This document shows, one piece after another, positions 1 through 33,502 of a stretch of DNA of 33,502 nucleotides; the stretch's first letter is position 1; every line of letters begins with the position of its first letter. The notes under the pieces are model-generated. The model was not told where the DNA came from, did no database searches, and saw only the letters and a list, made by a program, of their open reading frames with translations. The translations under genes were made by a program, and so were the position numbers. The DNA is taken from the NCBI GenBank assembly GCA_017650925.1, contig JAGCDY010000107.1, forward strand, positions 1 to 33,502, read 5' to 3'. Origin of the DNA: a bacterium. Lineage in GTDB: Bacteria > Auribacterota > UBA3054.

Positions 1-1238
1 ATGACGAGGCGGAACCCGTAGTCGGCGTAGGTGCTGCCGTTCATGGGCGCGCGGCGCGAGGAGATGCGCATATCGGTGGGGTTGCCGGAATAGCTGCCGG
101 CTCTCCTGCAGCGGCCCGAGCCTGACGACCCGCCGACAGGGTCGACCGTGGTTTGGGAAAGCTGCTGTCTCGAAAGTCCGTAGGAGTTCGCGAACCAGTC
201 GACGCACCATTCCCAGACGTTGCCGTGCATGTCGTAGAGGCCGACGAGATTGGGCTTCTTCAAGCCTACTTCATGCATGGCGCTGCCGGAGTTGCCGGAA
301 TACCAGGCAAGGTTGGCGAGATTGTCGTCTTTGGTCTTGTTGTTGTAAAGAGCGTACGGGCTGCCGTCGTTCCAACAGCCGGCTCCTATGAAGGTGCCGT
401 CGCCCTTGGAGCGGCAGGCCATCTCCCACTGCGCTTCGGTGGGCAGGTCAATTACGAGCGCGTTGCCCAGTTTGGCGCGGAAGACGCCCAGGAAGCTGTC
501 GCTGTCCACCCTGTGGTCGGTCTGGCTCGGCCAGGTGGCGCCGGCTGCGGCGCCCCTCAGGGCGTCGTAGCTCATGCGCGTCTTGGGCAGGCATGAGACG
601 CCCTGGGTGTCGCTTGCGATCCTGTCATACTGAGCCTCGGTGGTCTCGAAGATGGAGATGTAGAATTTTTTGCTGATCTCGACCGAGTGAAGCGGTTCGT
701 TGGCAGCGGTCGAGCTGTCCCATTCGTTGGTGGCGCAGCCCATCATGAAAGTTCCGGGCTCGATCTTCCTGAACCACATCTCGCTGATTTTGCTGTCGGA
801 GCCGACCGCTATGGTGGTCTGGTTGGTGCTGTTTGCGTAGGAGAAAGTCCAATCGTCGAGGTTTAGGATCATGTATTCGGGATCCTCGACGATCTCCTCC
901 ACCGCCAGGGCAACTTTAAAGTTGTCCGAGCTGGTGCTGGGGAACTGCGCGGAAGCGTCCCAGGTCACCCTTTTTTCGCCGGCGCCGACAACGAGCCCGG
1001 AGGAGCCGTCGCCGTTCAGGTTGGTAAGCCTTATGCTTTCGCCGTCGCCGATCTTGCCGTAGAAGATCACGTTGAACATCGGCTCCGCCGCGGAGCTTTG
1101 CAAAACGTAGTCGATGTCGACCTTCCCGTTCCAGGGCCAGCGCTGATGGCAGGAGACGCTTACGGCGGAGCTGCCGAAGCAAAGGCTGGAAAAGGCTGTG
1201 AGAGCCAGGAAAATTTTGAGGCGCGAAATCATAGTCAT
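1..1238 (-). CDS. exported FGE-sulfatase-fold protein, paralogue 1 (3' end outside window)
   Basis: The reading frame is open from the ATG at 1238 to the left edge (412 residues visible); by comparison with its paralogues only about 3-6 C-terminal residues are missing. A signal peptide (about 1-22) precedes the shared N-terminal module with the motif QRWPWNGKVDIDY. An FGE-sulfatase/SUMF1-like domain follows from about residue 150: PGTFMMG, DLPTEAQWEMACR, GLYDMHGNVWEWC and the C-terminal YADYGFRLV. Known FGEs carry two catalytic cysteines in the segment after GGSY; here the corresponding stretch is AGSYSGNPTDMR, with neither cysteine. I therefore infer a structural or binding role at the cell surface, not sulfatase activation. 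The ATG overlaps the stop of the upstream paralogue as ATGA, so translation is probably coupled. It is more similar to the 2502-3761 paralogue than to its direct neighbour. Confidence 0.85.
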   Translation of the reverse strand, partial: MTMISRLKIFLALTAFSSLCFGSSAVSVSCHQRWPWNGKVDIDYVLQSSAAEPMFNVIFYGKIGDGESIRLTNLNGDGSSGLVVGAGEKRVTWDASAQFPSTSSDNFKVALAVEEIVEDPEYMILNLDDWTFSYANSTNQTTIAVGSDSKISEMWFRKIEPGTFMMGCATNEWDSSTAANEPLHSVEISKKFYISIFETTEAQYDRIASDTQGVSCLPKTRMSYDALRGAAAGATWPSQTDHRVDSDSFLGVFRAKLGNALVIDLPTEAQWEMACRSKGDGTFIGAGCWNDGSPYALYNNKTKDDNLANLAWYSGNSGSAMHEVGLKKPNLVGLYDMHGNVWEWCVDWFANSYGLSRQQLSQTTVDPVGGSSGSGRCRRAGSYSGNPTDMRISSRRAPMNGSTYADYGFRLV

Positions 1239-2476
1239 TCCCCCACGATTATTACCATGCGGAAACCGTAGTCGGCGTGCGTCGAGGTGGGCGAAGCAGC
1301 GTTCCTGCGGGCGATACGCATCTCCCCGGGAGCGTTGCTGGCCGCGCCGCCGCGGCGCATCCTTTGACCGGAGTTGTTTTTCTGATGAAGCGGTCCGACG
1401 GGATCGGTGACGGGGGCGGTTCCCAGATTGTCAATGGTCCAGTCGAGGCACCATTCCCAGACGTTGCCGTGCACGTCGTAAAGGCCTATGCTGCTCGGTT
1501 CCTTCAAGCCGACTTCGTGGATCGTGCTCTTGTACCAGGCCAGGCGGAAAAGGTTGGTGTCCTGGTTCACGTTACCGTCAACTTTGGCATACGAGCTTCC
1601 GTCGGTCCAGTGGAGGTCGCCGTAGAAGGTGCCGTCGCCTTTGCTGCGGGCGGCCATCTCCCACTGCGCTTCCGTGGGAAGGTCGAAAACGACTTCATGG
1701 CCGGTTTTGGCGCGCAGCTTGCCGAGGAAGCTGTCGCTGTCCACCGCGTGGCCCAGTCCGGGCCAGTTCGTGCCGACGTTTTCGCCCCTGATGTCGGTGT
1801 AATCAAGCCCGGTCTTGGGGAGCATGGAAGAGTCGCTCGTTTCGCTGTCGATCTTCGCGTACTGCGCCTCGGTGGTCTCGTAGACCGAGATGTAAAACGG
1901 CTTGGTGATGGTGACTTCGTGGACGGTCTCGTTGTTCATGCCGACGTTGAAATAGGCGCGGTCATCGGAGCTCGCGCCCATGGTGAAAGTGCCGGGCTCG
2001 ATCCTCCTGAACCAGATCTGCGTCTGCTTCGTCGCGTTGTCGGAGGGGCTCGGATCGGTCCAGCTTTCCAATATCTGGTAGGTCTGAAGGTCAAGGATCA
2101 GGTACTTGGGAGGCATGGCTGACTCCCTCGCCACCACGGCCACTTTGACGTTGCCGGCGTCTACTGACGCGCCGCAGTCGGCGTAGGCGTCCCAGGTGAC
2201 CCTGTGCGCGCCCTCGCCGATGGCGATGCGGCTCGCGCCTTCGCCAAGGAGCGTTTTGATCGGGAAAGGCGTCCCGTCGCCGATTTTCCCGTAGTAGGCC
2301 AGATCGAAAACCGGCATGCCGTTGTTGTTTTCGGAGGCGAGCGTGAACTCGATGTCCACCAGCCCGTTCCAGGGCCAGCGCTGGACGCAGCTAATGTTCG
2401 AGACCATCTGCCCCATGGCGGCGGAGGCCAGGACAAACACGCTCAGTATCGCCGTTAATTTTTTCATTGTGGTCAT
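1235..2476 (-). CDS. exported FGE-sulfatase-fold protein, paralogue 2
   Basis: 413 aa. The start at 2476 is preferred because GAGG lies 9 nt upstream; the alternative ATG three codons later has no SD. The signal peptide covers roughly residues 4-23 (KKLTAILSVFVLASAAMG). The N-terminal module (QRWPWNGLVDIEF, YYGKIGDG, RVTWDA, YLILDL) is shared with both flanking paralogues. The FGE-like domain follows, with IWFRRIEPGTFTMG, DLPTEAQWEMAAR, GLYDVHGNVWEWC and DYGFRM. The catalytic-cysteine segment reads GAASNAPGEMR, so both cysteines expected of a true formylglycine-generating enzyme are absent. It lies 25 nt after the upstream paralogue and overlaps the downstream one by 4 nt. It is the most divergent of the three copies although it sits in the middle. 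Fold assignment is firm; function is unknown. Confidence 0.9.
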   Translation of the reverse strand: MTTMKKLTAILSVFVLASAAMGQMVSNISCVQRWPWNGLVDIEFTLASENNNGMPVFDLAYYGKIGDGTPFPIKTLLGEGASRIAIGEGAHRVTWDAYADCGASVDAGNVKVAVVARESAMPPKYLILDLQTYQILESWTDPSPSDNATKQTQIWFRRIEPGTFTMGASSDDRAYFNVGMNNETVHEVTITKPFYISVYETTEAQYAKIDSETSDSSMLPKTGLDYTDIRGENVGTNWPGLGHAVDSDSFLGKLRAKTGHEVVFDLPTEAQWEMAARSKGDGTFYGDLHWTDGSSYAKVDGNVNQDTNLFRLAWYKSTIHEVGLKEPSSIGLYDVHGNVWEWCLDWTIDNLGTAPVTDPVGPLHQKNNSGQRMRRGGAASNAPGEMRIARRNAASPTSTHADYGFRMVIIVGE

Positions 2477-2501
2477 ATGTGGTGTCCTCTTTTATGTCTG
2501 C

Positions 2502-3761
2502 TTAAGGATAGATCAAGGCCAGCCGGAACCCGTAGTCGGCGTAAGTCGTGACCGCGCTCTCGGCGGCGCGGCGCGGGATGCGGCAGTCTACGGGGTCGTT
2601 ATTGTAGCTGCCGCAGCGGCGCGAATTTTTGATTGTCCCGTCCGGGACGGCACCAACCGGATCAATGGTAAGGCCGGAGCGCTGGGCGCCGGTGAGACCG
2701 TAATTTCTGTCGAACCAGTCGACGCACCATTCCCAGACGCCGCCGTGCATATCGTAAAGCCCGATAAGGTTCGGCTTCTTTTCCCCGACCTCGTGGGGAA
2801 CGCTGCCGGAATTGCCTTTGTACCAGGCGACCTTGTCAAGATTGGCGTCCGTTGTCCCGTCGGCGGAATCGTAGGGGCTGCCGTCGTTCCAGCAGCCGAG
2901 CCCCAGGGAAGTCCCGTCGCCTACGCTGCGGCTGGCCAGCTCCCACTGCCCTTCCGTCGGCAGGTCTATTATGACGCTGTTGCCCACTTTGGCGCGCAAA
3001 CGCCCGAGGAAGCTGTCGGCGTCGACCCTGCGGTCTGTGTAAACGGGCCAGGTGGCGCCGAAATCCGTCCCCCTCAGCCTGGCGTAGGTAACGCGCGTTT
3101 GGGGAAGGCAGGAGGCGCCCGCCGTTTCCGAATCGGCCTTTTCGAACTGCGCCTCGGTCATTTCGAAAATGCCTATGTAGTGGCTTCTGGTGATCCGCAC
3201 TTCGTGACTGGGCTCGGTGTTTTTGCTGTTGAAGGAAGGATCGAAATAACCCCAGTCGCCGGAATCGGAACCCATAAAGTAGGCGCCGGGCGCTATCCTT
3301 CTGAACCAGATCTCGCCCGTCTTGCTGACGGATCCGGAAGCCACGGTATTAAGGTTCGTAGTGGCGGCGCAGGAGAAAGTGTAGTCGGACAGGTTAAGGA
3401 TAAGATACTCGGCCCGGCTCGTCACATCCTCGGCCGCCAGCGCGATCCTGACTCCGCTCACCTTGGAATTGGGAAACGCGGAAGCGGCGTCCCAGGTCAC
3501 TCTCTTGCTGCCGGAACCAAGAACGATCCCGGCCGCGCCGTCGCCGTCCAGGCCCGTCAGCGGAAAACTTTCGCCCTCCCCTATTTTCCCGAAGAACTTC
3601 ACCTCGAAGACCGGGTCGGCGCTGGGGCTTGAAAGGACGAATTCCACTTCGACCTTGCCGTCCCAGGGCCAGTGCTGATGGCAGGCGACGCTCTCGACGG
3701 TTTGCGAAAAAGCGCCCAGGCAGGAAAGGACGCCGAGTGTTGTAAGATAAGCGATTCTCAT
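2502..3761 (-). CDS. exported FGE-sulfatase-fold protein, paralogue 3
   Basis: 419 aa from the ATG at 3761. The frame is open further upstream, but that extension only overlaps the preceding gene antiparallel to no signal; the sequence MRIAYLTTLGVLSCLGAFSQ is a clear signal peptide and an AGGTGAAAGAG stretch precedes it. Domain order is as in the other copies: signal peptide, HQHWPWDGKVEVEF module, then the FGE-like domain (PGAYFMGSDS, DLPTEGQWELASR, GLYDMHGGVWEWC, YADYGFRLAL). The active-site segment reads CGSYNNDPVDCR: the position of the second catalytic cysteine of FGE is retained, the first is Asn, so full oxidase chemistry is not expected. It starts 8 nt after the PEP-CTERM-like gene and belongs to the same transcription unit. 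Confidence 0.88.
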   Translation of the reverse strand: MRIAYLTTLGVLSCLGAFSQTVESVACHQHWPWDGKVEVEFVLSSPSADPVFEVKFFGKIGEGESFPLTGLDGDGAAGIVLGSGSKRVTWDAASAFPNSKVSGVRIALAAEDVTSRAEYLILNLSDYTFSCAATTNLNTVASGSVSKTGEIWFRRIAPGAYFMGSDSGDWGYFDPSFNSKNTEPSHEVRITRSHYIGIFEMTEAQFEKADSETAGASCLPQTRVTYARLRGTDFGATWPVYTDRRVDADSFLGRLRAKVGNSVIIDLPTEGQWELASRSVGDGTSLGLGCWNDGSPYDSADGTTDANLDKVAWYKGNSGSVPHEVGEKKPNLIGLYDMHGGVWEWCVDWFDRNYGLTGAQRSGLTIDPVGAVPDGTIKNSRRCGSYNNDPVDCRIPRRAAESAVTTYADYGFRLALIYP

Positions 3762-3769
3762 CGTCTCTT

Positions 3770-4582
3770 TCACCTTTCCGTCGGCATTTGTCTCTTTCTT
3801 AGCGCGCAAAGGGACGCCAGGGCGAAAAGCGCGCAAATAAACGCCGGCTCGGGCAGTATGCGGATTGTCGGATTGGCGCTCCCCATGGTTATCACGCCGC
3901 TTCCCGTGATCTCGTAGTAAAGCGTATAGGTGACCGTGGAGGGCACATCCTCGCTCAAGTAGTTCCACCTGAAGGTGCCGTGCTCGTCGGTTTCGCTCTC
4001 GTAAAGGGGATACTCCTGGCCGGGAGACTCGTTGGAGACGGCGCTGACTTTTATCACCCTGTCCTCGCCCTCGGCCCAGCGGGCGTCGTAGACGATGTCG
4101 TCGGTCGTCAGAAGCGTCAGCGTGGTGCCCGGAGCGGTGCCAACGGTATCGAGGGAGAAATTGCCGGACCAGCTCGCCTCATCTTCCAGCGAGGAGGCGA
4201 GGCGCACCCTGACGGACTCCTCATCTATCACCTGGCCGCCGCTGGTTACCGTGTGAGTTATGATGTAGTCCTCTCCCGGGTCGGCGTTGGCGATGAAATA
4301 GTCCCAGCAGTTGCTGGACACACGGTTGTCGTCGTACAAGCGGGCGATCTCATAAGTGTCGCCGCTGCTGACGCCCTCCGCCGTGACGACGGCTTCCCTT
4401 CCGCTGCCGGCGATCCAAGCCGTGCTGTAAGTGATCGCGTCGTCGATTTTCACGTCGACGGGCGAGCTTTGGTTGGTGTCGAAGGAGAAGGTGTCAGACC
4501 AAAGCACCTCGTATTCGGCGCAGACCGTAACGGCCGCGGCGAAGGCGAGAAGAATCGCTAAAATTTTGGAATTTCCGATCAT
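3770..4582 (-). CDS. exported two-repeat protein with PEP-CTERM-like tail
   Basis: 270 aa. A signal peptide (about 1-22, ending TVCA) is followed by two copies of a roughly 100-residue beta-rich repeat. The first begins near TFSFDTNQSSPVDV and the second near NFSLDTVGTAPGTTL; both share a central Y..AW/RW element and a Y-x-I-T/YEIT-x-SG ending. The C-terminus is LPEP followed by a hydrophobic stretch (FICALFALASLCAL) and basic RKRQ. This is the architecture of PEP-CTERM signals that exosortases process; no exosortase gene lies in the window. It starts only 8 nt after argG without a good SD and is followed 8 nt later by the FGE-fold array, so it is probably co-expressed with that array as surface material. 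The repeats match no family I can name. Confidence 0.82.
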   Translation of the reverse strand: MIGNSKILAILLAFAAAVTVCAEYEVLWSDTFSFDTNQSSPVDVKIDDAITYSTAWIAGSGREAVVTAEGVSSGDTYEIARLYDDNRVSSNCWDYFIANADPGEDYIITHTVTSGGQVIDEESVRVRLASSLEDEASWSGNFSLDTVGTAPGTTLTLLTTDDIVYDARWAEGEDRVIKVSAVSNESPGQEYPLYESETDEHGTFRWNYLSEDVPSTVTYTLYYEITGSGVITMGSANPTIRILPEPAFICALFALASLCALRKRQMPTER

Positions 4583-21924: not shown

Positions 21925-24900
21925 ATGATTTTCAAAAAAAATAAAAAACGCGGATTTATCCTGCCGGCCACTCTGATTTTCCTCGCCGCCCTGGGCGCGC
22001 TGGCGACCTTTTTCGCACTTCAGATAGGGCTTGAGCAGCAGATATCCTCCAGTCTCATAAAAAGCGACCAGGAAAAACTGATATGCCTCTCGGCCCTGGA
22101 ACACGTAAGGGCCCTCATGGAGACCGCAGAAATAAGTTGTCCCGGCTCCTGGCTGGCCGCCGGAATGGCCGGACCCTACGACTTTGAAGGCAGGAACTAC
22201 AGGATAAAGATAAGCCCGCTGACGTCCAATGCCGCCTACCAGGAATTCTTCGACGGAACTTTTTGGCAGAACCAGACGCCCGTATCCCTGGCGGATCCAA
22301 AAGATATCCTCTCCGCCAAAAAGCGCGAAAATAAGAGCAAGACGCATGACGAACGTCTGAACGAACTGGCCCTCATCCTGAGCGACGCCTGCGACGAGAA
22401 CCGCGCCGTCAACGAAAACGCCGGGCAATACGGAGCGGAAGCAGTGGAGTTTTCAGAGATACTCAGCGACGACGGCAGCGAACTGCGTTTGGCTTACCGC
22501 GCCAACGCCGTCTACAAGGAAAGAGCCGTGACGTCTCTCCCCTACTTCTACGGGAACAGGGACTACGACTCAGCCGCTCCCCTTACGGAAGACTCCCCTT
22601 TTCAAAGGGAGCTCTTCGATCCTTCGACCGCCAGACACGTTCTAAGGGACGAATGCGAAAAAGGGAACGGCAGGATCAGGATCGCGCTCTCAAGGGATCC
22701 CGTAACGGACGGCAAGGAAAGCGCCATCCTGAAAGATTGGCAGCGGAAAAAAATGAGAGCGTTCCCTGTCGACGGCCTCTGGCGGAACTGCCGCATCGCC
22801 TTCTTTGGCCTGGCCGTCAAGGGCATAACGCCCAGGGCGGTCCATAACATAATCGACTCCGACGGCGACAGCGTTTACCTAAGGGACGAACAGGGCCTTT
22901 TCTGCGCGATAACTAACGCAAGCTACCGCTTCGCCCAGCTGAGGGGATGGGTGCACTCTGAGACCCTCTATTCGGAGGCGCCCTACCAAACGCTCTGGTT
23001 GGCGGCCGGCGACCTGCAGAAAGACAAATATTACTGCGTCCAGATCCAGGACGCCAATTTTCCGGTGCCCACGGCCGACAGCGCCTACGGGACGGTCCGC
23101 AACAAAAAACTGATTGCCGGAGGAGATCCCCTGAGTCTGGAGGAGACGGAAGCGAACGGCTACGTTACGGACTACGCGCTCTTAAAGCCTCAGAAGGCCG
23201 ACCGCGACGGAGGGATCGAACTTATCTTAAGGAGCCCGTCTGACTGTTCTCCCAAATGCCGCGTCAGGATCAACAGCGTCTATTTCCGCCGGCCCGACAT
23301 CGTGTCCGTCATCAACAGAAGCGACGAGCCCGTTTTCCTGTCCAACTGGAAACTCACGGCGCAGACCGGAGAAGGCGTGTATCTGTTGGGGACCCTTCCA
23401 AGTTACGCCGCGCTCCCGCCGGGAGGCAGGTTCTATCTTTCGGATCAGACGGAAATACTAAGGGAGGAATACGGCTTTAGGGAGCTAAAACACGACAGGC
23501 CGGAAAAAGAGGCGGCCATATCGCTCCTGGGCGGAAGCTGGGGGCTGGATTACGAAATAAGCTCGGTCAAAGAAACGAAAAAGGGCGCGCAATATTATAC
23601 CGTGATAAGCTGCAAAAACGCCTTTTGGGAAAAGGACGAGCTTATGGACGAGGTGGCGGAAATTAAAGACGGCCTGCGCTTCCCAATAGAAGGCGGCAAC
23701 ACAAGGGCGGCGCTTATCTTCTCCAACCTCAGGCTGGAGCGCTACGCCGGATTGAAGGAAGGAGACAAGCTCAGGATAGTCGGCCTGCCTCGCCATGTGG
23801 AGTACGCCTCCCTCACTCTGAAAAACGAGTATTCCCAGGTCGCCGCCAAAACGAAAGGCATAAAACACCCAAAAGACGCCAAGCGCTACTCGAGCCTTCT
23901 GAAAGAAAACGATGTCTGGCGGTCGAACGAGATGCCCTTCGAAAACTTTGCTCCCTCAGGTATCAGAAAATACTACGACCGTCCGCTGACCAATGACAGC
24001 GAGGTTTTCGCCGCGCTTTCAAGAAGCGTCCGGCACTCCGAAGAGCTGAAGAAACTTTATTCGGGATCCGACGCTCTGACGCTTTACGCGAAAGATTTTC
24101 CGGCGTCCGCGGCGGGATACAAGGGCGATTGGCAGCTATCCGGCGGAAAAGCCAAAAAAACGGAGGACGGGCTCGCGTTCTCCTCGTCATACTGGCCGAA
24201 AGATTTCTGGCGGGGGCAGAAGCTGCGCGTAATTGAGGGAGAATTAAAAGACGAGGTGTTCGCCGTGACAGGAAGCGTGAGAAATGTCGTATTGATCGGC
24301 GGCGCTTCCCTGCCGCGAAGGCTGCGCTTGGAGAATTTCACGGAAGGCCTTGCCGCGCTGGGGCCCGGGTACAGGAACATATTCTTCACCGCGCACAAAA
24401 ACAACGCCTGCGGGGAATGGACCTTCTCCAACCTTTGGGATTGCCTCGAGGGGGAATTGTACGCCAAGGGCCTTTCCGACGCGATCGATTCCGGGGAATT
24501 CCTGGAGGAAAACCACAACGCTCTCATAACCCCCGAGATCTTCGATTGGGAGAAAAACGCCTGGGAAAAATTCCCTCCCTTCCGTTTCCAAAAAAACGAC
24601 AGCGCTTATCTGACCACCGTAAAAAAGCGTCATCTCTCCGCAAGCGGCTGCCTGAAGCTTAAGCTGACTGCCAAAGGCTTGGACGACGCTTCCGGCTCGG
24701 GCCGCGCCTGGTTCCAAGGGATAGCGGTCTGCCCGAAGCTCAGGCCAGCGGCGGTAAGCGAAGAACCGATGGTACCGAAAGGGCCCATCCCCCTGACAGT
24801 TTACCCTAACCTCCTTTTCAACTTCCCCGCTTTGAAATTCTACCGTCTCGAAGTCACGGTCGGATCAAAAGTTTTCAGGTACATCCTGTCCATTGGTCAG

Positions 24901-24951
24901 GCGGATCCCGTTACCGGCAGGAGAAAACTGAATTTCCAAACGCTTCCGTAA
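21925..24951 (+). CDS. giant type IV pilin/GspK-like protein with lamin-tail-like segment
   Basis: 1008 aa. The N-terminus MIFKKNKKRG/FILPATLIFLAALGALATFF has the form of a class III (prepilin peptidase) signal: basic leader, Gly before the cleavage site, Phe+1 and a hydrophobic helix of about 22 residues. Glu5 of major pilins is absent, as in GspK/PilX-type minor pseudopilins, but those are only about 170-330 aa long. The rest is a very long extracellular part. Residues of about 446-515 (SVINRSDEPVFLSNWKLTA, LPPGGRFYLSD) look like a lamin-tail domain. Elsewhere no domain is recognised. It is a single gene with a strong terminator. No other pilus or type II secretion genes are in the window. 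A tip or surface adhesin-like role is inference. Confidence 0.78.
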   Translation: MIFKKNKKRGFILPATLIFLAALGALATFFALQIGLEQQISSSLIKSDQEKLICLSALEHVRALMETAEISCPGSWLAAGMAGPYDFEGRNYRIKISPLTSNAAYQEFFDGTFWQNQTPVSLADPKDILSAKKRENKSKTHDERLNELALILSDACDENRAVNENAGQYGAEAVEFSEILSDDGSELRLAYRANAVYKERAVTSLPYFYGNRDYDSAAPLTEDSPFQRELFDPSTARHVLRDECEKGNGRIRIALSRDPVTDGKESAILKDWQRKKMRAFPVDGLWRNCRIAFFGLAVKGITPRAVHNIIDSDGDSVYLRDEQGLFCAITNASYRFAQLRGWVHSETLYSEAPYQTLWLAAGDLQKDKYYCVQIQDANFPVPTADSAYGTVRNKKLIAGGDPLSLEETEANGYVTDYALLKPQKADRDGGIELILRSPSDCSPKCRVRINSVYFRRPDIVSVINRSDEPVFLSNWKLTAQTGEGVYLLGTLPSYAALPPGGRFYLSDQTEILREEYGFRELKHDRPEKEAAISLLGGSWGLDYEISSVKETKKGAQYYTVISCKNAFWEKDELMDEVAEIKDGLRFPIEGGNTRAALIFSNLRLERYAGLKEGDKLRIVGLPRHVEYASLTLKNEYSQVAAKTKGIKHPKDAKRYSSLLKENDVWRSNEMPFENFAPSGIRKYYDRPLTNDSEVFAALSRSVRHSEELKKLYSGSDALTLYAKDFPASAAGYKGDWQLSGGKAKKTEDGLAFSSSYWPKDFWRGQKLRVIEGELKDEVFAVTGSVRNVVLIGGASLPRRLRLENFTEGLAALGPGYRNIFFTAHKNNACGEWTFSNLWDCLEGELYAKGLSDAIDSGEFLEENHNALITPEIFDWEKNAWEKFPPFRFQKNDSAYLTTVKKRHLSASGCLKLKLTAKGLDDASGSGRAWFQGIAVCPKLRPAAVSEEPMVPKGPIPLTVYPNLLFNFPALKFYRLEVTVGSKVFRYILSIGQADPVTGRRKLNFQTLP

Positions 24952-24982
24952 AAAAAAGCGCGCCGTGCGGCGCGCTTTTTTT
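24950..24982. terminator. bidirectional intrinsic terminator
   Basis: An A tract overlapping the stop codon, a 7-bp GC stem GCGCGCC/GGCGCGC (24958-24964 / 24969-24975) with loop GTGC, then T7. It serves the plus-strand pilin-like gene and, from the other side, the acc operon whose last stop is at 25001. Confidence 0.93.
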
Positions 24983-30567: not shown

Positions 30568-31575
30568 TTAGAGGCCTTCCCTCATTACGTCGGCCATGGT
30601 GCGCTTGCCCAGCGCGTTGTAATTCTTTTTGGGGATCCTGCGGACGCTTTCCGGCTTCCTGCGGAGCTCCTCCGCGCGAATGTCTTTCTCGACTTCCTCT
30701 TTGGCGGTCAGGGGAACGATGACTTCGGACGCCGGCTTCAGACTGGTAGTGCGCTGAACGACCGGTTCGGCAGGTTTCTCAGCATTCTGCGTCCAGGAGG
30801 GAGCGTCGCTGTGCACCGGCCTTATGACGTCTTTGGAAGAAGCGTAATTGTTCTCAACTTTCGTGGACAGGTTGTTAAGCCTCTGAGTGACGGATTCGTC
30901 GATGCTGACTACGGGCGTCGCTCCGGGAAGCTCGCTCTCGTTCTGCCAGGAGGGAGCGGAGACGGCCACCTTTTCCTCGACTTTTTCTTCGACCTTTTCC
31001 TCTTCTTTCTTCACTTCCTCAACCACTTTGAGAGAAACCTCTTCCTCGGCCTTCTTAGCTTTCTCTTCCTTTTCCAGTATCTGGGCGCCGTACTGGGCCA
31101 CCAGCTTTTCTTCCGCTTCCTTTATCATGGCGTCGACTTCGGACATGTCGATGGCGCGAGTGTCGTTTGTGACCGTTTCGGCCACGTCGATGATAGTCTC
31201 TTTGAGCGCCTGCTCCTTGACTTCTTCCTGGATGTCAGCCAAACTCTGGGCGAAATCGTTCGAGTCAGCCACGGAGACCAGGGAGCTCTTCGCTTCGGCG
31301 CCGGCGGGGCGGACGACGGAGGGAGGCGTCTTGGAAGGAGCCGTCACCGCTTCGGAGATGATCTTGTGTTCTTCCTTCTTCTCCTCTTCCTTGGCGACCT
31401 GAGCTTCCGCTTCCTTCTGCGCTACGCTTTGCTTTTCCACCTGCTTCTGCAGGTCATACATCTGGGCTTTCAATTTCTGCATCTCTCTTTCCGAACCGGA
31501 ATTTCTCCACAAAGCGAAGAACGCCACGGCAGCGAGCGCCAGAACGAGCAAAACGTAAAAGATTTTCTTGAACAT
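30568..31575 (-). CDS. single-pass membrane protein with coiled coil and Glu/Lys repeats
   Basis: 335 aa. One N-terminal membrane helix (about 5-22, FYVLLVLALAAVAFFALW) is followed by a predicted coiled coil (about 28-70, EREMQKLKAQMYDLQKQVEK) and a long, low-complexity region rich in Glu, Lys and Val, including the repeat KVEEKVEEKV. A phrase APSW(Q/T)QN occurs twice. There is no catalytic domain. The topology suggests an envelope-spanning scaffold. It has a good promoter (31615-31643) but a weak SD. The neighbour 10 nt downstream is exported. Function unknown. Confidence 0.75.
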   Translation of the reverse strand: MFKKIFYVLLVLALAAVAFFALWRNSGSEREMQKLKAQMYDLQKQVEKQSVAQKEAEAQVAKEEEKKEEHKIISEAVTAPSKTPPSVVRPAGAEAKSSLVSVADSNDFAQSLADIQEEVKEQALKETIIDVAETVTNDTRAIDMSEVDAMIKEAEEKLVAQYGAQILEKEEKAKKAEEEVSLKVVEEVKKEEEKVEEKVEEKVAVSAPSWQNESELPGATPVVSIDESVTQRLNNLSTKVENNYASSKDVIRPVHSDAPSWTQNAEKPAEPVVQRTTSLKPASEVIVPLTAKEEVEKDIRAEELRRKPESVRRIPKKNYNALGKRTMADVMREGL

Positions 31576-31582
31576 AAGCTAA
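31569..31582. repeat. 14-bp direct repeat, copy 1
   Basis: TGAACATAAGCTAA overlaps the start codon of the coiled-coil gene; an identical copy lies at 31787-31800 at the edge of the long palindrome. Confidence 0.6.
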
Positions 31583-31614
31583 AGGTACTTCCCGAAATTT
31601 AAAGTGGGATTGCC

Positions 31615-31786: not shown

Positions 31787-31800
31787 TGAACATAAGCTAA
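31787..31800. repeat. 14-bp direct repeat, copy 2
   Basis: Exact copy of 31569-31582; its last six bases are the first bases of the long palindrome. Confidence 0.6.
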
Positions 31801-31892
31801 GGCGGCATATACCCCATAGCGAACTCACGGAGGACGCAAATCAAGGCCATGCGCGCGTAGTCCGTGAGCGAGGGGTATATGCCGCCTTAGCT
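31795..31892. repeat. 98-bp long imperfect palindrome with 21-bp perfect arms
   Basis: The outer arms 31795-31815 and 31872-31892 (AGCTAAGGCGGCATATACCC... and its complement) pair perfectly over 21 bp. Inside, CTCACGGA/TCCGTGAG (31824-31831 / 31861-31868) pairs over 8 bp and ACGC/GCGT (31834-31837 / 31855-31858) over 4 bp, separated by an asymmetric bulge (8 nt against 3) and a 2x2 mismatch; the loop is 17 nt. It begins 7 bp past the stop of the right-edge gene. There is no T tract and no clear target-site duplication. It could be a miniature mobile element, a 3' processing/stability hairpin or a protein-binding site. Confidence 0.75.
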
Positions 31893-31899
31893 AGATTCT

Positions 31900-33502
31900 T
31901 TATCTTTGCTTGAGGCCCAAGCAAGCCAGCGCGGCTAGCACAAAAATAGCCACCGCAGGTTCCGGGATCGGGTCGGTGGAGATGCCGAAGATGCCGGAAT
32001 AGTTGGTCACGTTGTGGCCGTGGAGGTCCTCGGCGATGATCCTGACGACCGCTCTGTCGGTGACCTGCCTGTAAGGGAAGGTGTTCCAGCTGAATTTTTT
32101 GTCCAGCTCGTAGTAGTAGTCCTCGCAGATGTCGATCCAGGGGCCTTGGAACTCGTTGGTGGAGTAAGAGAGGTAAAAGGCGCGCCAGCCGTCGGAGGGG
32201 GCCTTGTATTCCCACTCTATGGGCTCCGTCATGGTGCGGTAGATGTCCCCCGCCGCGGGCTTCGTCACTTCAACGTATTCCGTACCGTCCAAGGGCGCCG
32301 GCTTGGGCGAGAGCTCCATTTCGACGGTGTAGAAGGTGTTGGAGTTCAAAGGTCTGCTGGTGACCACGTTCCCGTGGCCGTAGGCGCTGCCGAAGGAGAT
32401 ATACCATCTGCCTTCCAAACCCTTGTCGTAGCAGTCGTCCTGGGTCAGCGTGAAGGTGTGTTCCGTCTCACGGCTTAAGGACAGATCGTCGTAAACGAAG
32501 CCGTCCTGCTGGTAGCGGTCAAAGAAGGGAATGTAATTTTTCCTGAGGCCGCAGAGCACGGGAAGCCCGGTCTTGACTCGCACGACCAGCTGCGTCGTGC
32601 CCTCCGGGACCTTCATCTCGAAGGAGAAGAAGCCCGCCAGATCGACGTCCTCCTGGCGGATCGTTTCATGGGATCCGATTGGGTAGGCCGCCACGTTGAA
32701 GTTCATGTATTTCGTTATCCAGTTCATCATGTGTCCGCGCCTTAATCCGACCTTCTCGGGCATATGCTTGAAGAACCAAATTTTGTGCTTGTAGTTGACG
32801 CCGTTGCCCCAGTCGGCGCAGGTCATGCTCCTGGGGACCCAGTTGGTCATGTTGGGATAGTCGTACCAGCAGTCGGCGTAGCTCATGACCGGCGTGGTGT
32901 TGCCCCAGTCGTAGTCCCTAACGGAGTTGGGGGCGTAGTGCACGTCGCCTATGTTGACGTTGTCGGTGCACTCGCTGCCGTGGGCCCTGTAAAGCGCCAT
33001 GTCGTGGGAATTGGTGTAGTCGATGCCGTTGTCGAAGGAATAGACGTAGTTGTGAAAGGCGCCGCCCAGGTGCCATTCGCAGCCGTGGCCGAAATTCTCC
33101 ATAGGCGTGTCGGATCTTTCGATGCTGGGCATGCACATCATGAACATCCTGTCGTTCATGAGCCGGCCGAAGCCGAAGGAATTGCAGCCGAAGGCGCCCT
33201 TGCCGAAAAGCCTGGTCTCGTTGGTGTCCATGCCGGGCCAGCCGTAGAGCCAGACCTGGTCGATGTCTCCCCTCTCAATGGCGGGGATCATCCAGGGCAC
33301 GTCGTTGGTCAGAAAGTGCGCGTAGTCGAAGGCGCCGCCGGGATGCTTGTCCTTCTCCCCTTTCTTCCAATAGTCGTAATAGCTCTGCTGGTTGAAGCGG
33401 CGGCCGCTGGTCATCAGCGGGAAAATGTCGAGGTTCGTGACGACCACGAAGTTGGCTTTGACCATGCCGAAGGTGGCTTCCTTCCACCAGGACTTCTGGT
33501 CG
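31900..33502 (-). CDS. exported PEP-CTERM-like protein (5' end outside window)
   Basis: The frame is open to the right edge; 533 residues are visible, and sequence before the internal Met at 33465 (WWKEATFG) is clearly coding, so the start and signal peptide lie outside. The first two thirds carry Trp/Tyr/Asn-rich blocks: VVTNLDIFP, WLYGWPGMDTNETRLFG, MENFGHGCEWHLGGAF, IGDVHYAPNSVRDYDWGN and FFKHMPEKVG. These resemble a group of secreted bacterial proteins of unknown function that I cannot name. A beta-rich region follows (about 270-500). The C-terminus is IPEP plus a hydrophobic stretch (AVAIFVLAALACLGL) and KQR, a PEP-CTERM-like sorting signal matching the tail of the 3770-4582 protein. His and Glu/Cys in FGHGCEWH could be a metal site, which is inference. 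Confidence 0.82.
   Translation of the reverse strand, partial: DQKSWWKEATFGMVKANFVVVTNLDIFPLMTSGRRFNQQSYYDYWKKGEKDKHPGGAFDYAHFLTNDVPWMIPAIERGDIDQVWLYGWPGMDTNETRLFGKGAFGCNSFGFGRLMNDRMFMMCMPSIERSDTPMENFGHGCEWHLGGAFHNYVYSFDNGIDYTNSHDMALYRAHGSECTDNVNIGDVHYAPNSVRDYDWGNTTPVMSYADCWYDYPNMTNWVPRSMTCADWGNGVNYKHKIWFFKHMPEKVGLRRGHMMNWITKYMNFNVAAYPIGSHETIRQEDVDLAGFFSFEMKVPEGTTQLVVRVKTGLPVLCGLRKNYIPFFDRYQQDGFVYDDLSLSRETEHTFTLTQDDCYDKGLEGRWYISFGSAYGHGNVVTSRPLNSNTFYTVEMELSPKPAPLDGTEYVEVTKPAAGDIYRTMTEPIEWEYKAPSDGWRAFYLSYSTNEFQGPWIDICEDYYYELDKKFSWNTFPYRQVTDRAVVRIIAEDLHGHNVTNYSGIFGISTDPIPEPAVAIFVLAALACLGLKQR

Follow-up and report, generated by a model that had tools for sequence, protein, structure and literature searches.

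A hairpin repeat with a nearly constant core and variable, complementary arms is confined to one genus of ruminant-gut bacteria

The window analysed here, a stretch of 33,502 nt, comes from an about 90% complete MAG of 1.98 Mb in 135 contigs (G000). It contains a 98-nt hairpin at positions 31795-31892 (Table 1), where the original prediction had placed a palindrome with 21-bp perfect arms; our analysis confirmed this structure, with correct coordinates and far beyond chance expectation, the arms being 100% complementary, 56 nt apart and the sole inverted repeat of such quality within the 33.5-kb window. The asymmetric 8/3 bulge that had been described was also exact (ATAGCGAA opposite CGA). 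The predicted RNA fold of the 98 nt has an energy of -59.9 kcal/mol, compared with a mean of -30.05 for shuffled sequences (z = -9.4), and none of 200 shuffles equalled it.

As had been claimed, the hairpin lies just behind a gene, with only positions 31893-31899 separating it from the stop codon of the minus-strand gene 31900..33465. The C-terminus encoded by this gene shows PEP, a hydrophobic stretch and a basic end, and is PEP-CTERM-like as judged by eye; comparison of the gene with Pfam and NCBIfam models gave no match. According to the list of open reading frames, the hairpin is situated between codirectional genes, both on the minus strand. A 13-nt direct repeat, GAACATAAGCTAA, occurs at 31569-31583 (start of gene 30568-31575) and at 31788-31800 (outer edge of the left arm), probably by chance. 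Elsewhere in the window, three paralogous secreted proteins are encoded side by side at 3-3968 (minus strand); the two that were scanned both contain an FGE-sulfatase (formylglycine-generating-enzyme-like) domain, and the third resembles them by eye and gave weak GldK/PvdO matches. A short perfect hairpin at 24951-24982 (AAAAAAAGCGCGCCG / CGGCGCGCTTTTTTT), behind the long gene 21925-24951, is an ordinary two-way intrinsic terminator.

Table 1. Coordinates of the hairpin components and of the adjoining genes in the window.
Feature	Position	Strand	Basis
Gene beyond the hairpin's other side	30568..31575	-	open reading frame list
Left arm, 21 nt, AGCTAAGGCGGCATATACCCC, locus-variable	31795..31815	+	varies among copies, right arm changing complementarily
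Conserved asymmetric internal loop, left side, 8 nt, ATAGCGAA (family consensus TAAGCGAA)	31816..31823	+	23-copy alignment
Inner stem (8 bp), left strand, CTCACGGA, almost invariant	31824..31831	+	fold and copy alignment
Apical part: GG/AG 2/2 mismatch, 4-bp stem ACGC/GCGT, 17-nt loop AAATCAAGGCCATGCGC	31832..31860	+	
Inner stem, right strand, TCCGTGAG	31861..31868	+	fold and copy alignment
Asymmetric internal loop, right side, 3 nt, CGA	31869..31871	+	conserved among copies
Right arm, 21 nt, GGGGTATATGCCGCCTTAGCT	31872..31892	+	
Neighbour gene, 3' end adjoining the hairpin	31900..33465	-	open reading frame list

No U tract follows the hairpin on either strand, as previously noted, and a terminator scan did not list it, the U run that follows the G+C-rich stem of intrinsic terminators being absent here. 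Likewise, no covariance model of Rfam 15 reached its gathering score anywhere in the window, and around the hairpin none matched up to E = 5.

Searching the window's own genome retrieved some 28-29 copies at E < 1e-4, and a covariance model built from 23 of these copies found about 30. The hairpin is thus multicopy, with about thirty copies at unrelated sites, which is what the proposed BLASTN comparison was meant to reveal; far from being a single copy whose arms decay independently, it occurs many times and its arms change jointly. In one and the same search, the model gave 44 matches in G000 and 43-61 in each of four sister species (G001-G004), counts that exceed those of copies because some matches are the reverse-strand echo of a single copy, and only 2-6 in three other members of the genus (G005, G006 and G007); outside the genus, none of 51 genomes contained a copy. 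The exact core pattern, searched in one genome for each of 84,980 species, was found in 97 stretches, all from ruminant-gut MAGs of the same genus, with organism names as in the MAG records and grouping at genus level by the tool. The repeat is therefore confined to one genus of ruminant-gut bacteria. A phage origin was rejected, since none of 2.9 million viral contigs contained the exact core, and an assembly foldback artefact was rejected as well, as the same sites and arms were found again in MAGs obtained independently from several host animals.

The family has an almost constant, asymmetric core of ~57 nt (core A, CTCACGGAGGA ... GTAGTCCGTGAG), its left side carrying TAAGCGAA and its right side CGA. 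Within genomes, identity was 0.90 in the core, a value inflated because copies were found through it, and 0.40-0.42 in the arms; even where two copies shared 95% or more of their core sequence, arm identity was only 0.37, although gap-free scoring, position by position, understates the arm values. Core and arms are thus decoupled. Retrieval through the core also under-counts palindromes with other cores, and a scan of the 594 kb analysed, consisting of stretches around copies, gave 32 other palindromes, mostly terminators.

In spite of their variability, the arms change in a coordinated way. Among the 116 copies whose arms could be aligned (22 of the 138 were left out), arm pairing comprised 2525 Watson-Crick pairs (about 97%), 29 G-U pairs (about 1%) and 48 others. 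Changes were two-sided in 11 of 13 arm pairs examined, and sliding the partner arm by 1-3 columns lowered pairing from 96% to 29-54%. The few mismatches in the arms show a slight excess of G-T (22) over A-C (9), which hints mildly that a folded nucleic acid is under selection. An extra base, mostly G, occurs 11-14 bp from the inner end of the left arm 50 times in the 116 copies and never at this place on the right arm, indicating that strand polarity is kept while arm sequence is not. It had been argued that arms this perfect must be of recent origin or under strong selection; in that form, the argument does not hold, because arms are perfect in widely differing copies and at sites shared among species, which indicates instead that perfection is continuously restored.

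Comparison of flanks sorted copies from different species into 36 same-site groups. The large two-sided counts of the unfiltered comparison include register shifts and whole-arm differences, and we relied only on a strict set (identical bulges, no more than 6 changed pairs, register-safe), which contained 25 two-sided versus 5 one-sided arm changes, six of the two-sided ones being transversions. The window copy and its counterpart in G001 differ at 2 compared arm positions, both compensated, one of them a T:A to A:T change. Furthermore, the core is inverted within kept arms (G000_L025 vs. G003_L162, and G000_L004_2 vs. G004_L198_97), with some inverted pair in 19 of 32 site groups, a maximum estimate given that adjacent copies may be mistaken for one another. 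Some copies have chimeric arms, with left and right of different origin (G000_L011, G003_L174, G003_L176 and G001_L134), and apical loops were swapped between identical arms (G000_L010 vs. G001_L132). At the window's own site, G004 carries an oppositely oriented copy whose apical loop contains a second one, and G002 and G003 carry other palindromes with an almost identical insert. No target duplication was seen at the compared sites, nor a clean empty site; the one candidate empty site, in G005, may also reflect a deletion.

The insert at the site of window 31790-31900 (L106/L143 in G002 C69; L105/L178 in G003 C92) is flanked by sequences that diverge clearly more than the insert itself, and contains a third palindrome type (GTCAG..CCTCTTGATTTTACTTCGTAACAAAATCTTGAGG..CTGAC). 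This type has also replaced the left half of a core-A copy in L210 / L013 (G000 C79:29900-30010), with the junction at a shared CTSACGG.

Arm homogenisation and spacer inversion are described outcomes of template switching between the arms of inverted repeats (PMC8604942), and template switching was proposed to create and maintain hairpin stems through multi-base compensatory mutation (PMC8794818). All three signs, namely homogenised arms, two-sided multi-base changes and inverted spacers, are seen here as in template-switched quasi-palindromes (PMC8604942, PMC8794818), with selection as an alternative cause of the symmetry. However, those quasi-palindromes are single sites or RNA genes, whereas ours is a dispersed family with a conserved core that stays imperfect. 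That the core mismatches were left uncorrected suggests that they are selected, as with the bulge of the Escherichia coli REP, which is needed for TnpA-REP (PMC8266576). Together, homogenised arms, inverted spacers and uncorrected core mismatches point to a DNA hairpin that would be recognised through its asymmetric core and would spread in trans.

The genetic context was examined for 125 intergenic copies with both neighbours, using as gene calls plain open frames of at least 100 aa, which are error-prone in a G+C-rich genome; at the window copy, this crude caller chose an overlapping plus-strand frame over gene 30568-31575. Copies are enriched between convergent genes, with 57 convergent, 54 codirectional and 14 divergent locations, versus 14, 24 and 18, respectively, for 56 control gaps (minimum length, 20 bp). 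Copies lie a median of 31.5 bp from gene 3' ends. A T5 run is present within the right arm in 44 of 116 copies, the window copy not being one of them, so that a terminator function is conceivable for some; about a third of the copies have A5/T5 runs at the base of their arms, as in two-way terminators. Compensatory change in a stem is usually taken as proof of a selected RNA. The proximity to stop codons, the enrichment in convergent gaps, the A5/T5 runs and the strong covariation of the arms could all reflect a selected RNA structure at mRNA 3' ends, either a stabiliser or a terminator, with the compensatory changes representing RNA covariation. We consider this unlikely: in spite of the asymmetric core, orientation with respect to codirectional genes is random (30 same, 24 opposite), G-U pairs are rare, cores invert and nest, there is no match in Rfam and the window copy lacks a T run, while selection against insertions in promoters would equally enrich copies behind genes. 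The covariation analysis that the original prediction had put forward as evidence of a selected RNA did yield strong covariation, but the scarcity of G-U pairs and the random orientation make such an origin less favoured; for the same reasons, together with the Rfam result, the mRNA 3' stability structure it had also proposed fits less well.

Copies of the repeat also occur inside one another. Nesting was seen for 11 of the 138 copies: each sits within another's apical loop, oriented alike and at a similar position, in most cases with 12-14 nt and about 5 nt between the inner copy and the two loop ends; this position corresponds to the apical part of the window copy, where its relatives carry other copies. 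G002 and G003 share an outer copy with identical arms, which has the nested form in G003 and a simple form in G002; the G002 loop is identical to the inner loop in G003 and looks like the product of a collapsed nested form. In addition, there is a second, smaller palindrome family with a different core (core B, GTAAGCAAACTYAGCGAAGCNTGTTTGCC; CCCGTAAGCAAACTYAGCGAAGC..TGTTTGCCAAGGG), usually placed beside core A, left end to left end, which shares with it an AAGCRAAC internal-loop motif (e.g., L087:4541-4610 in G000 C62). Core B is confined to the genus among 44 genomes searched, with 34 exact matches in seven of the eight genus genomes. Considering both families, 42 of 44 distinct close pairs are head to head, i.e., left end to left end (17 A-A and 25 A-B), two are tandem and none is right to right, with fewer than 44 independent events because some pairs are orthologous. 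The window copy is a singlet.

It is also conceivable that there was no transposition, and that the copies are old and their core was spread by gene conversion and template switching among resident palindromes. Some copies are indeed common to distant members of the genus (G005 and G006), the core varies independently of the arms, apical loops can differ where the arms do not (G000_L010 vs. G001_L132) and transposases are scarce. Nevertheless, the difference between 43-61 model matches in G000-G004 and 2-6 in G005-G007 shows that numbers have changed, and nested copies and doublets of fixed polarity are hard to produce by conversion alone, so we deem this explanation improbable. More speculatively, the repeat might target itself, with new copies entering resident apical loops on single-stranded DNA and then collapsing or shedding layers; the core would spread and each site would keep or rewrite its own mirror-image arms, driven either by replication alone or by a class of enzymes so far not linked to repeats in bacteria.

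Candidate mobilising enzymes were sought in the eight genomes of the genus. For Y1_Tnp (PF01797, RAYT), the copy-poor G006 gave a single weak match, and G000-G005 and G007 gave none; RVT_1 showed the same distribution, with one match in G006; DDE_Tnp_1 was absent from all eight; and rve was found only in G004-G007, and thus in one copy-rich genome. RAYT, reverse transcriptase and DDE transposase were therefore rejected as partners, being absent from copy-rich genomes. G000-G004 contain two tyrosine recombinases each, presumably XerC/XerD. A transposon bounded by two near-identical copies on C62 was also rejected, because they enclose a radical-SAM gene (HydE-like by eye) and no transposase. 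Since MAGs easily lose mobile genes that are repeated, the absence of an enzyme weighs less here than in closed genomes. The miniature element mobilised in trans of the original prediction is favoured by the many copies at unrelated sites, whereas no mobilising enzyme was found in copy-rich genomes.

In MITEs, ERIC and similar palindromic repeats, which are also short, non-coding, dispersed and presumably moved in trans, the conserved part is the termini; in our repeat, the termini are variable, the centre is conserved and target duplications were not seen, which sets it apart from MITEs. Integron attC sites are recognised as folded single strands with extrahelical bases, and it is the palindrome rather than the sequence that is conserved, as in our repeat, for which recognition as a folded single strand would also apply. 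However, in attC the base of the hairpin is conserved and the tip variable, the reverse of what we found, and each copy-rich genome contains only two tyrosine recombinases.

The closest resemblance is to REP, BIME and REPIN sequences, which are also intergenic imperfect palindromes in many copies, with a conserved bulge, opposite-orientation pairs and a location mostly behind coding regions (PMC3733652, PMC8266576, PMC3116915). By definition, REPs are palindromes of ~20-50 nt, one end of which bears an unpaired GTAG or CGTC tag (PMC3733652, PMC8266576), whereas our hairpin has 98 nt and carries its GTAG apically, within the core rather than at the foot. Unlike REPs, its arms are hypervariable yet complementary and its copies nest in each other's loop. 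The 42 left-to-left pairs reproduce the two-unit, opposite-orientation arrangement of REPINs and BIMEs, but the units are not REPs, so that this is a likeness of layout and not membership. REPs and REPINs are associated with RAYTs, and no such association was seen here, with MAG incompleteness as a caveat. The repeat could be a REP/REPIN- or IS200/IS605-type element whose Y1 (HUH) transposase was missed in assembly; its asymmetric bulge, opposite-orientation doublets and position behind genes are REP features (PMC3733652, PMC8266576, PMC3116915), and MAGs often miss repeated genes. We regard this as very unlikely, given the lack of Y1_Tnp in seven of the eight genomes, with the one weak match in a copy-poor genome, the GTAG motif inside the hairpin rather than as an unpaired tag, the length of about 100 bp and the hypervariable arms.

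We therefore favour, with a probability of roughly 0.6, the interpretation as a non-coding DNA-hairpin repeat of REP-like character, spreading in trans and with arms kept symmetric mainly by template switching. What spreads from one intergenic site to another would be the strand-asymmetric conserved core, which a putative activity would probably recognise in the form of a single-stranded hairpin. The outer arms would belong to the site, their mirror symmetry being kept mainly by replication template switching between them, which would also flip the core.

With more than 130 natural copies, the family displays arm complementarity with almost no G-U intermediates, independent of gene strand and accompanied by core inversions. 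It therefore provides naturally occurring cases for testing to what extent RNA covariation can be mimicked by template switching alone, and prompts the question of how a hairpin repeat becomes dispersed where the usual transposases are lacking.
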